From Bacillus cereus (lineage in GTDB: Bacteria; Bacillota; Bacilli; Bacillales; Bacillaceae_G): a stretch of DNA of 60,273 nucleotides. The notes under the pieces are model-generated. The model ran no database searches. It was not told the origin of the DNA and saw only the letters and a list, made by a program, of their open reading frames with translations. The DNA lies in the NCBI RefSeq assembly GCF_002584535.1, contig NZ_NUOT01000040.1:1-60273 (forward strand). The letters run 5' to 3'. Positions within the stretch are counted from its first letter, which is position 1. Each line of letters opens with the position of its first letter. Position numbers and translations under genes: made by a program. Below are positions 33,583-59,753 of the stretch, in pieces.

Positions 33583-34026
<444 letters not shown>

Positions 34027-52369: not shown

Positions 52370-52762
52370 TTGGCACAGGTACAATACTATGGTACTGGAC
52401 GTCGTAAGAGTTCAGTAGCGCGCGTACGCCTAGTTCCAGGCGAAGGACGCGTTATCATTAACGGTCGTGATTTTGAAAACTATATCCCATTTGCTGCATT
52501 ACGTGAAGTAGTGAAACAACCTCTAGTTGCAACAGAAACTTTAGGTAACTACGATGTACTTGTAAACGTAAATGGTGGTGGATACACTGGTCAAGCTGGT
52601 GCTATTCGTCACGGTATTTCTCGCGCTTTATTAAAAGCTGACCCAGAATACCGTCTAACATTAAAACGTGCAGGTCTATTAACTCGTGACGCACGTATGA
52701 AAGAGCGTAAAAAATACGGTCTTAAAGGCGCACGTCGTGCACCTCAGTTCTCAAAACGTTAA
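52370..52762 (+). CDS. rpsI: 30S ribosomal protein S9
   Basis: 30S head protein whose C-terminal tail (PQFSKR) reaches the P-site tRNA. The start is TTG at 52370 with SD AAAGGAGGG. 130 residues, [21 protein letters not shown] onward. It is the last conserved gene before the accessory island. Confidence 0.97.
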
Positions 52763-52778
52763 TTATCGACGTTTCAAA

Positions 52779-52813
52779 GGCTCTCAAGCTTTTTGCTTGG
52801 GGGTCTTTTTTTA
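52779..52813 (+). terminator. Terminator after rpsI
   Basis: GGCTCTCAAGC and GCTTGGGGGTC (with wobbles) around TTTTT, followed by seven T residues. Confidence 0.85.
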
Positions 52814-52830: not shown

Positions 52831-52876
52831 GGTCACATTTTGATCACGAAAATATTTTTGGGTCACTCCTGGTCAC
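52831..52876. repeat. Cluster of four GGTCAC-type direct repeats
   Basis: GGTCAC at 52831, GATCAC at 52842, GGTCAC at 52861 and GGTCAC at 52871, all in the same orientation with start-to-start spacing 11, 19 and 10 bp, near helical phase. It lies immediately 3' of the recombinase relic. Arm-type integrase sites are one possible explanation. Confidence 0.55.
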
Positions 52877-53017: not shown

Positions 53018-53050
53018 TTAGAGAAAAATTTAATTGTAGACCTTTGCTTC

Positions 53051-54445
53051 CTACTCAAGGAACTTAACGACTCCCCACCATGTTCCCCAAAAGTCTTGAC
53101 TAACCACATATTCTTGAACTGTCCAAAATTCCTGATCATTGGAAGGGTCAACGCATGTTGCGCTGTAATCTCCCCATCGGTTCCGTCCCATGCCATCCGT
53201 TAAAAAGTAGGTAGCTTGTCCAGCTTGAAGCAAGGTAACTTGTTCTGTTGTGCCAGGTGCATCGCTTGCACGTCTTCCTGTGAAGAAGGCACTTGCAAAT
53301 AGGTCCGTGGATGATCCGCTAAAACCGATTACCATATGGTTGGAGGAGTTGACGGCGAGAGAAGGATAATAATAGGCGTGTGTGCTGTGTTGAACTCGCC
53401 CTTGTTGAATTGGGGTGCTTATCTCCGGATCAATTTGATACCAGGAAACCTCTGCTCTGCTTCCGTCTTGGCTAGGTACAGTATGGGTTGTCCAAATTGT
53501 TTCATTACGATAAATAGCTTGCAAAAGGCGAGTATCTCCTGTGTCAATCAATTGAGGGGAGTCCTTTTGAAGAGCGCCTGGTATGACAGAGCCGCTAAGT
53601 GAATCGATAGTAATTTGTTGAAGTTGTGTCCAAAAAGGTATCCCGTTAGAAAATGTTATTTGGTTTAGCTGCAAACTGTCCAGACTGGCTAGTGAGATCA
53701 AGTACTGAACTGAAACATTTGGATCAAACACTTGAGTAGGCTGTGTTGTAAAAAATGCACCAGGCGGTTCATAGAACTCATACCAGGTCATGCTATCCAT
53801 CGAGTACAGCTGACTCTTCTCGAACACCCAGATTTTAGTTGCCTGATAACTTCCCTCATTGTTGAACATGTTGGCAGTTACGTAGACATGAGTATTGTCC
53901 AGTCCTAAACTTGGATAGTCAGCCCAAGTATCTAACTGCATATTATTAAATATATCTGCATCAATTGCTCGGAATACCCAGTTAAATGGGTCTTCAGGAT
54001 TCGACACGCCCACGAGCAGCCAGGAATTAGGAGAGCTTTCCCCCGCGAGCGAAATGATGAAGAACCGATTGGATAAATTGTCATAAAGGATTTTTGGGTC
54101 AAAAGCAAAAGTACCTTCTGTAATGACTCCAGTTGGGGTCCAAAAATCATCTAAAGTGGTAGTGGTAAGAACAGCACCATCCTCCTTTTGGTTGATCGAT
54201 ATTCCTCCATTTACAACATTTACAACATGATTAAGACCAACTGCGCCCATTGTATCCGGCGGAAACCACCCGTTATAATCTACTCCTTTAAACTGTTTTA
54301 TGATACTTGGAGCTGTGACATCGTCATTCTGTATAACCTTTTTTGGAAAAGGCGGTGTTTTCTGCCGTGGTAAAAAAGATTGTACACCTGGTGTGGGGAG
54401 GTATACTTTACTTCCCATAATAGAATTTGATTTAATATTTCCCAA
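53051..54445 (-). CDS. Uncharacterised 464-residue beta-propeller-like protein
   Basis: I do not recognise a named family. Visible: PPDTMGAVG (residues 62-70) followed by LNHVVNVVNGG, repeated segments of the type WLLVGVSNPEDPFNW and WADYPSLGLDN, and a C-terminal WGDYSAT...FWTVQEY motif (424-446). In my memory this combination marks secreted beta-propeller-like proteins of diverse bacteria. Here no signal peptide or transmembrane segment is seen; the N-terminal 50 residues are polar and proline-rich. The start is TTG at 54445 with AAAGGA upstream; an ATG at residue 10 has no SD. It is intact, on the opposite strand to its neighbours, and next to an integrase relic, suggesting acquisition. Function unknown. 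Confidence 0.8.
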   Translation of the reverse strand: MGNIKSNSIMGSKVYLPTPGVQSFLPRQKTPPFPKKVIQNDDVTAPSIIKQFKGVDYNGWFPPDTMGAVGLNHVVNVVNGGISINQKEDGAVLTTTTLDDFWTPTGVITEGTFAFDPKILYDNLSNRFFIISLAGESSPNSWLLVGVSNPEDPFNWVFRAIDADIFNNMQLDTWADYPSLGLDNTHVYVTANMFNNEGSYQATKIWVFEKSQLYSMDSMTWYEFYEPPGAFFTTQPTQVFDPNVSVQYLISLASLDSLQLNQITFSNGIPFWTQLQQITIDSLSGSVIPGALQKDSPQLIDTGDTRLLQAIYRNETIWTTHTVPSQDGSRAEVSWYQIDPEISTPIQQGRVQHSTHAYYYPSLAVNSSNHMVIGFSGSSTDLFASAFFTGRRASDAPGTTEQVTLLQAGQATYFLTDGMGRNRWGDYSATCVDPSNDQEFWTVQEYVVSQDFWGTWWGVVKFLE

Positions 54446-54973
54446 TTACAGAACATTCCTTTCATATTTTTTGCAATTTAAAATCGCTAATTTACTTTAT
54501 TCATTCTGCAATCAAGCTGAAACGGCAAATATTCTAGAAACGTGTAAGAGATAAGAAAATATGTGTTTGTCCAATAAGTAAATGGACATTAATTAAGGAG
54601 TTAAGAGTAGTTAAAGGAGGGGGATATGGGGGAAAATCATTAGCATAGACCAGACTGCTTTTTGGCTGGGGTTTTTTATTATGTTTAATGGAGCTATATC
54701 AATCCATTTTGAGTTTTCAACATATAAGGCGCTGCTACGAAGAACAAAAGATAACTTGCACTTGTTTTTTCGCTTTGTTTTAATTCGGCATGGGGCAGAG
54801 GGAGGATCTGATCGCTTCTATGCATAGCTGGACGCGCTCTCTCACTTGAAAGGAAAGGTTTTATACCGGTTTTTTAATGTATTATATCTTGGAATATTTT
54901 AGTGCTACCTTCCTACGTATGCTTCATCTTTAGAAGTTTAGACTAATACGTATTAGGGAGGTTTATAAGTACT
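54446..54973. other. Unexplained 528-bp intergenic region upstream of ybaK
   Basis: AT-rich, with no plus-strand gene I can support. A terminator-like element (CCAG...CTGG then TTTTTT) is at about 54650-54676. On the minus strand two overlapping frames stay open: 54611-54817 (68 codons, no start codon) and 54694-54825 (43 residues from ATG). The first ends in a run resembling a short hypothetical ORF that I recall from B. cereus-group annotations, but neither has an SD. Confidence 0.5.
54943..54956. promoter_or_regulatory. 14-bp perfect palindrome before ybaK
   Basis: CTAATACGTATTAG, directly adjoining the SD of ybaK (AGGGAGG). It could be an operator or a stability hairpin; no regulator is known to me. 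Confidence 0.45.
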
Positions 54974-55402
54974 ATGAATGTCATTGTTAGCTTACAAGAA
55001 AAACAAAAAGAAAAGCAGTTGAAATATGAACGGAAGATGCTTCGTGAATTATCATTAAAAACGCTAAGGTCCAATATTCGTGATGCCTTCGATATGAAAG
55101 AGTTGCACAGGCAGTATGAGGATTATTGTATTGAACTTGGAATTGAATCGTATTTATTAGGAGCGAGATATAGTAAATTTGGCTATTATGGTGAATCTTT
55201 TTTTGATGTGAAATATAGAGCTTTAGAAGAAGAGCAGCAATTAACGGAAATGTTGTTTCAATTTTTAACAAGCATGACCATGCGGGAGATAGAATCGAAC
55301 GCTGAGGATTCGCTGTATGAATCCTGTGAACAATTTATTAGTTCATGGTGGCGTGAAGGCTACGAAAAGGGTGAAAGAAGATATCGTTTAAAGCTGCATT
55401 AA
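54974..55402 (+). CDS. ybaK: YbaK, DUF2521-family protein
   Basis: Conserved Bacillus protein of unknown function, 142 residues, rich in charged residues, with predicted helices (LQEKQKEKQLKYERKMLREL) and a Glu-rich middle; no signal peptide or membrane segment. It lies directly upstream of cwlD, as in B. subtilis. SD AGGGAGG is about 11 bp before the ATG. It is probably co-transcribed with cwlD (69-bp gap). Confidence 0.85.
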   Translation: MNVIVSLQEKQKEKQLKYERKMLRELSLKTLRSNIRDAFDMKELHRQYEDYCIELGIESYLLGARYSKFGYYGESFFDVKYRALEEEQQLTEMLFQFLTSMTMREIESNAEDSLYESCEQFISSWWREGYEKGERRYRLKLH

Positions 55403-57471: not shown

Positions 57472-58089
57472 TTATTTTTGTTCTTTTGATCCGCCTTTTC
57501 CGCCTTCTCCACCACCTTCTTTTTTCTCGGCTCCTCCACCTTTTTCGGCTTTTTCAATGCCTTTACTAATGATGTCAATCATCTTAGCTTGGAAGAGTGG
57601 GCTTTCAGCAGTTTCTGTTAATACTTGTTGCAAATATTGACGATACTCTTTGCTTTTCATTGTTTGTAGCATCATTTTCTCTACTTCGGGGTTTTTCATA
57701 ATTTCTATAACGCCTGCTTGGTATTCTGGGTCTTTTAATAGGGTCTTCATTAAGGCTGTTTGTTCTTTTTCAATGCCTTTAGCAAATTTTGATGAAAACT
57801 CAGGATCTTTAAATAGCTTTTCCCAAAGCTGTTGCCCTTTTTCGGATACCATTGCATCTTCAATCGTTTTTTTGACCACAGTTTCATCTAATATAAGTGC
57901 TTGTTTCATTTTCTCATCTGTTAATACATCTTGAATTGCTTTCTTCCCTTGATCGGTTTTTAAAATATCGACAATCATTTTTTTGGTTTGGTCGTAATCT
58001 AATTCAGATTTCGCTTCTTTTCCTTGTGCACATGCAACAAGTACAGTAAAAAGAAGGGAAGAAACTAAAACGAGCAGCATCCGTTTCAT
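57472..58089 (-). CDS. gerD: Spore germination lipoprotein GerD
   Basis: Inner-membrane scaffold protein that clusters nutrient germinant receptors into the germinosome. The lipoprotein signal ends at LVAC with Cys20 as the lipidation site. The mature part is alpha-helical and charged, with a Gly/Lys-rich low-complexity C terminus (GGGAEKKEGGGEGG). 205 residues. SD AAAGGAGCT is upstream. Expected forespore (sigma-G) expression fits the promoter at 58124-58153. Confidence 0.95.
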   Translation of the reverse strand: MKRMLLVLVSSLLFTVLVACAQGKEAKSELDYDQTKKMIVDILKTDQGKKAIQDVLTDEKMKQALILDETVVKKTIEDAMVSEKGQQLWEKLFKDPEFSSKFAKGIEKEQTALMKTLLKDPEYQAGVIEIMKNPEVEKMMLQTMKSKEYRQYLQQVLTETAESPLFQAKMIDIISKGIEKAEKGGGAEKKEGGGEGGKGGSKEQK

Positions 58090-58988: not shown

Positions 58989-59753
58989 TTATTTTATGTC
59001 TTTACTTTTTGCGTTTGTGTTAGAAATAAGTTGTGATACAGATACTTGCCCATAGCCATCACTTTTTAATTTCTGCAGGAGCAGCGGTAGAGATCTATTT
59101 GTTTGAAGTGCCGAATCCGAAGCATGTAATAAAATGATATCTCCACCTCGTAAATTGTTAGAAACCGTAGATACAATTTTATTTACACCAGGATTTTTCC
59201 AGTCGTTTGAATTATTACTCCAGTGTACAACAGTATATCCAAGAGAATCTGCTACTTTGAGAACTGTTTTATTAAATTCCCCGCTAGGAGGACGCAAGAG
59301 CTTGATTTGTTTTATTCCAAGTTTTGCAAAAACACCTTGTGAGCGTAAAAGATCTCTTCGTATCTCGTTCGCTTCCAAAGAAGTATAAGAGGTATAGTTA
59401 TATCCCATACTTCCAATTTCGTGACCATCCTGTATAATTCGTTCAACAATATCGGGATGTCTTTCTGCCCATGCTGCAGAGAGGAAGAAAGTCGCATTTT
59501 TAATGTTTCTTTCTTTTAAAGTATCAAGAATAGGAATTGCCTTTTTATCTCCCCAACTAATATCGAATGTTAACGCAACCTGTTTTTTGGCGGTATCACC
59601 TTTGTAAATGACTTTTGGACCAGTAGCAGTTGAAAAAGCAGACTGATGAGAATATGTCTTTAAAAAGAGAAGCCATGCTGTAAATAAGGATAGTACAATA
59701 ATTAAACTAATGTGCTTAAATTTACGTTTACTTGTTATAAAAAAGAAAAACAT
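58989..59753 (-). CDS. pdaB: PdaB, polysaccharide-deacetylase-family sporulation protein
   Basis: NodB-fold protein needed for spore maintenance in B. subtilis. 254 residues, with an N-terminal anchor (about 13-31) and a NodB domain from about 55. The first motif is TFDISWGD (62-69), not TFDDG. At the position of the two zinc histidines the sequence is [11 protein letters not shown] (110-120), where Met and Tyr replace the expected His residues. RPPSGEF (154-160) and LLH (His210) remain. It may therefore be catalytically impaired or act differently. SD GGGGCGGAG. Transcribed away from the rRNA promoters. Confidence 0.93.

Follow-up and report, generated by a model that had tools for sequence, protein, structure and literature searches.

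How did an intact gene pointing against its neighbours come to lie between rpsI and ybaK in Bacillus cereus, and what might its product do? We addressed this question in a 60,273-nt stretch of contig NZ_NUOT01000040.1 (assembly GCF_002584535.1), referred to here as the window, in which a preliminary description had picked out a 464-residue minus-strand open reading frame (ORF) next to an integrase relic. Our analysis points to a real and intact gene of foreign origin, which encodes a protein of an unmodelled β-propeller family and lies in an rpsI island that has decayed; the finding is an unusual one. In the reading that we favour, and regard as probable, the gene was acquired horizontally and lies in the decayed remains of an element that had integrated at the 3′ end of rpsI. 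The gene and its start signal are placed as follows:

53051–54445, minus strand: intact ORF of 464 aa with a TTG start, encoding a predicted single-domain β-propeller of the PPDTMGAVG/RWGDYS family
54457–54462, minus strand: AAAGGA, a Shine–Dalgarno-like sequence 11 nt ahead of the TTG, read by eye

The boundaries and start codon given in the preliminary description proved exact, and the motifs PPDTMGAVG, WGDYSAT (as RWGDYSAT) and QEY that it had listed are all found in the product. An in-frame TAA (54448–54446) stands immediately 5′ of the TTG, so an upstream start is impossible in this frame. Because the unbroken frame matches the relative L009 over residues 59–461 (36% identity; tblastn E 3e-83), the ORF is more than a chance frame. 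The product matched nothing in Pfam, NCBIfam or PHROGs, a sequence search of the PDB returned nothing convincing (best E 0.42 with the product alone and 0.84 with a family profile), and no mention of the peptide PPDTMGAVG was found in the literature searched.

The relatives of the product are distant and widely scattered. A tblastn search of plasmid records matched 12 of 72,556 at 24–31% identity, in Streptomyces, Halocatena, Deinococcus, Polymorphobacter, Halalkalicoccus, Bradyrhizobium, Hymenobacter and Gemmatirosa but in no Firmicute, and the same search of 50,697 phage records matched none. Two patterns drawn from a two-sequence alignment led to 48 loci in genome contigs, whose titles name Planctomycetota, Verrucomicrobiota, Armatimonadota, Cyanobacteriota, Acidobacteriota and Pseudomonadota (L019 carries no phylum) and, again, no Firmicute; such scans detect only relatives in which the chosen patterns are preserved and do not amount to a census. 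Neither patterns from this alignment nor the ORF's own peptides found a relative among viral contigs. Six 8-residue ORF peptides likewise found none in a set of 84,980 species with a single genome apiece, the Bacillus content of which was not listed; as far as this set reaches, there is no sign of the universal presence at this site that the preliminary description had named as evidence against acquisition. In whole-genome sampling, matches, with the seeds included, occurred in 35 of 294 genomes from the phylum of L009, in 9 of 288 from that of L010 and in 3 of 292 from that of L013.

Overall, the relatives range over groups that include Planctomycetota, Verrucomicrobiota, Cyanobacteriota, Pseudomonadota and haloarchaea, and full-length identity reaches ~41% at most. 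The top full-length BLAST identity is 39%, L009 stands at 40–41% on multiple alignments, and higher values are confined to shorter stretches (G001, 52% over 189 residues; L030, 45% over ~157). In a tree of 50 rows the product pairs with L009 (support 100/97) on long branches. With the RWGDYS propeller proteins L009, L079, L092 and L013 (Microseira wollei) it shares a core domain spanning residues ~50–461 at 36–39% BLAST identity. Across 58 aligned domains, the window copy included, conservation reaches 85% or more at 43 positions; the product has the usual residue at 38 of them, and PPDTMG and RWGDYS rank among the most conserved. The core had no Pfam match in the 22 members scanned, and the family itself is uncharacterised. 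It is expanded in some genomes: matches fall in four distinct reading frames of G756, and contig 13 of G295 carries two adjacent copies.

The codon-usage score of the ORF is the lowest of the 39 window genes (−0.25, followed by ybaK at −0.18). Together with the lack of close relatives, this score supports horizontal gain, and we regard acquisition of the ORF as well supported.

The AlphaFold2 model of the product has an all-strand core (pLDDT 84.1, pTM 0.85), in which the first strand follows ~46 residues, leaving an N-terminal tail of ~50 residues outside the core; residues 1–40 fall below a pLDDT of 50 and are predicted to be disordered. Propellers fill the top of the fold-match list, which comes from VIA-align alone; families absent from it could still match. 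The model thus supports a β-propeller fold, in line with the 5–8 blades anticipated in the preliminary description, and by our count from the strand list there would be seven blades. Internal blade repeats sought by segment comparison were suggestive only (probabilities below 10%). Propellers of this kind most often serve to bind ligands. The product may form a rigid, ligand-binding disc in which the conserved loop motifs PPDTMG, DYPxLxxD and RWGDYS would hold a ligand or calcium.

The relatives had been expected to be secreted and the window protein to lack a signal peptide, and both expectations held. A hydrophobic stretch (11-residue mean hydropathy of at least 1.8) lies within the first 90 residues in 39 of 45 relatives. 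These 45 are the loci among the 48 with an assessable N-terminus; L009, L024 and L044, which are cut, were left out, and start codons were assigned mechanically. The window protein reaches a maximum of only 0.46 in its first 60 residues and of 1.56 in its first 90, at residues 74–84 inside the core, below the threshold. C-terminal PEP-CTERM domains were found in 13 of 22 aligned proteins (the window protein and 21 relatives from among the 48 loci) and a dockerin in one, whereas the window protein, with no Pfam family at all, has neither. Most relatives therefore look exported, often with sorting tails or long additional regions attached, whereas the window copy appears as a bare domain, an unusual member of its family. 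Its lack of a signal peptide argues against export by Sec; in contrast to its exported relatives, the protein may work within the cell or only once the cell has lysed. Nothing supports the spore or surface role once proposed for it, and inspection by eye found no convincing sporulation promoter 5′ of the ORF.

The evidence for an element comes from rpsI and the stretch beside it, where the following features occur:

52370–52762, plus strand: rpsI (ribosomal protein S9), the presumed target gene
52701–52768, plus strand: rpsI 3′ tail, the likely att core region, which the viral contig L101 carries beside its integrase (84% over 68 nt)
52776–52808, plus strand: intrinsic terminator 3′ of rpsI
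52831–52876, plus strand: four GGTCAC/GATCAC repeats resembling arm sites, in the same alignment columns as the TGACCA repeats of L101
52883–53017, minus strand: tyrosine integrase stump, the last 44 codons plus stop, preceded by an in-frame stop (Phage_integrase, E 4.6e-7)

The suspected integrase relic is thus borne out, and it is of the kind that targets rpsI. The stump matches residues 336–370 of a 380-residue streptococcal satellite-phage integrase (71%, E 6e-11); this was the single significant piece in the window (next best E 0.11), and a complete integrase gene was not found. Stump-like sequence occurs in 232 of 50,697 phage records, mostly at less than 60% identity. The integrase of L101 shares 78% identity with the stump over 36 residues, and the alignment of the two DNAs runs from the rpsI tail on into the integrase gene, with the window repeats falling on those of L101. 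Four such repeats in 60 bp occurred in none of 30 simulated 60-kb sequences, for a motif chosen after it had been seen. Among 20 viral contigs with a piece of rpsI, a stump-related integrase lies beside the rpsI tail in L073 (56% over 27 residues); one also adjoins it in L074 and in Listeria phage vB_LmoS_188 (50% over 26 residues), and other contigs carry more distant integrases. The highest identity to the stump was in L132 (86% over 28 residues), with no rpsI tail in the L132 DNA examined. As a separate observation, L073 and L075 are the same viral contig, IMGVR_UViG_3300042923_000961 (51,408 bp), with two rpsI tails ~49 kb apart, as in an integrated prophage with both attachment sites.

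The rpsI gene is a published insertion site. One report describes islands at its 3′ end, a 61-bp att core, and integrases associated with rpsI in Bacillus (PMC5341023), and another lists rpsI among the targets of streptococcal integrative and conjugative elements (PMC4701971). In the Macrococcus McRI islands, vB_LmoS_188, L101 and the window alike, the 3′ tail of rpsI is followed by an integrase gene oriented towards it; the first three have a complete integrase, whereas in the window just its final 44 residues are left and a right end was not detected. We regard the presence of the left end of an rpsI-integrated element in the window, on these likenesses, as well supported.

In the favoured account, an integrative element would have entered the 3′ end of rpsI, the propeller gene may have arrived as cargo of that element or of one that used the hotspot later, and most of the integrase would then have been lost, together with the right end, through a deletion or insertion. 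Since the ORF adjoins the stump at its cut edge and a right attachment site was not found, the two were brought together by some later insertion or deletion. Several observations weigh against this account. The end of the ORF lies 33 bp from the broken end of the stump, and the gene takes the place of the integrase body. No direct repeat of the rpsI tail (attR) was found at 54300–55000 and no arm-site cluster at 54446–54973, where there is one loose match at 54635. An rpsI tail lies beside the integrase in only one (L101) of 38 viral contigs with the motif IKEVQERLGH, many of which end at the integrase, so that its absence there says little. The rpsI terminator resembles that of B. subtilis and needs no element; the sequence just 3′ of the rpsI stop, TATCGACGTTTCAAAG, resembles the Listeria phage more than it does B. 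subtilis, and the evidence from this stretch is therefore mixed. The codon-usage gap to the next gene is modest. Our limited searches, in which Firmicutes were not searched as a group, found no relative in Firmicutes, phages or viral contigs. A sigma-70 scan, which gave 7 sites in total against 6.0 expected by chance, placed none on the minus strand between the start codon and 55000. Of the integrase-mediated acquisition originally suggested, the foreign origin stands on the codon outlier and the distant relatives, whereas carriage by the integrase of the stump is unproven.

The same remnants could also house a dying passenger, that is, the functionless core left of a larger, exported propeller whose signal peptide and sorting domain were lost when it was joined to the stump. 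The absence of both export features, which most relatives have, the lack of a promoter-like site 5′ of the ORF and the broken gene that it abuts are what this explanation predicts, and we give it real weight while thinking it unlikely. It has to accommodate 464 codons free of stops and frameshifts, the 38 retained conserved positions, and a plausible start with AAAGGA that leaves the N-terminal tail outside the core. A more ambitious version of the favoured account, in which an exported propeller family became signal-less and intracellular or lysis-released in a spore-forming Firmicute and spread via rpsI sites, this being its first sighting in the phylum, seems to us doubtful.

We consider it improbable that the propeller is an enzyme using its top face or central channel, like CylK or Vgb-type lyases. 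The propeller domain of the cyanobacterial alkylating enzyme CylK (PDB 7ron) is 6% identical to the window protein and, as a fold match, leads the other propellers by only ~2 Z units. A profile of 22 family members retrieved no CylK chain from the PDB at E values up to 10; the two may still be distantly related. CylK also has an N-terminal calcium-binding domain, which it requires (PMC8916777), whereas the window protein has only ~46 residues ahead of its first strand.

A long-standing resident gene of the host lineage, never acquired, is very unlikely. Its G+C content (43%) is within the range of the window genes (34–44%); however, its peptides found no relative in the 84,980-species set, it is the strongest codon outlier of the window, it sits in element remains, and B. 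subtilis has ybaJ at the same place. An assembly chimera, for which the sharp junction at 53018–53050 and the lack of any close relative in the searches could be cited, is hardly credible given flanks that are both collinear with the conserved order, an attL-like left end that forms a natural junction, and codon use only moderately unlike that of the host.

These results draw attention to a well-defined propeller domain found across several phyla, and a bare-domain copy in a Bacillus-like chromosome is an odd occurrence. They also suggest that, when an island at the rpsI hotspot decays, a single foreign gene can survive intact with a core gene on either side, a setting in which annotation based on gene order would be misleading.

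To the right of the ORF, two further features were noted:

54657–54680, plus strand: 24-nt stretch, 79% like the rpsI terminator, possibly a displaced terminator, which may be chance
54974–55402, plus strand: ybaK (DUF2521; PF10730, E 7.7e-55), the right flank, in the same gene order as in B. subtilis

The window order is rpsI, integrase stump (minus), ORF (minus), ybaK and a cwlD-like amidase, whereas the B. subtilis record NZ_AP028965.1 reads rpsI-ybaJ-ybaK-cwlD-salA-gerD, with ybaJ in place of the ORF; the expected departure from the conserved Bacillus order is thus confirmed. No trace of ybaJ was found in the window, and DUF2521 had no match in viral contigs. The surrounding block had been described as all plus, which is correct for the genes from rplM to salA; further right, the ORFs at 57472–58089 and 58989–59753 are on the minus strand, and these we presume, from gene order, to be gerD and a ‘deacetylase-like’ gene. 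The B. subtilis record (L078) is a 128,740-bp circular sequence labelled as a plasmid, whose core block from rpsK and rpoA to kbaA places essential, chromosomal-looking genes on a circle of their own. Elsewhere in the window, positions 33600–33703 match the S10-Clostridia ribosomal leader at 35.4 bits, only just above the gathering score of 35.1.
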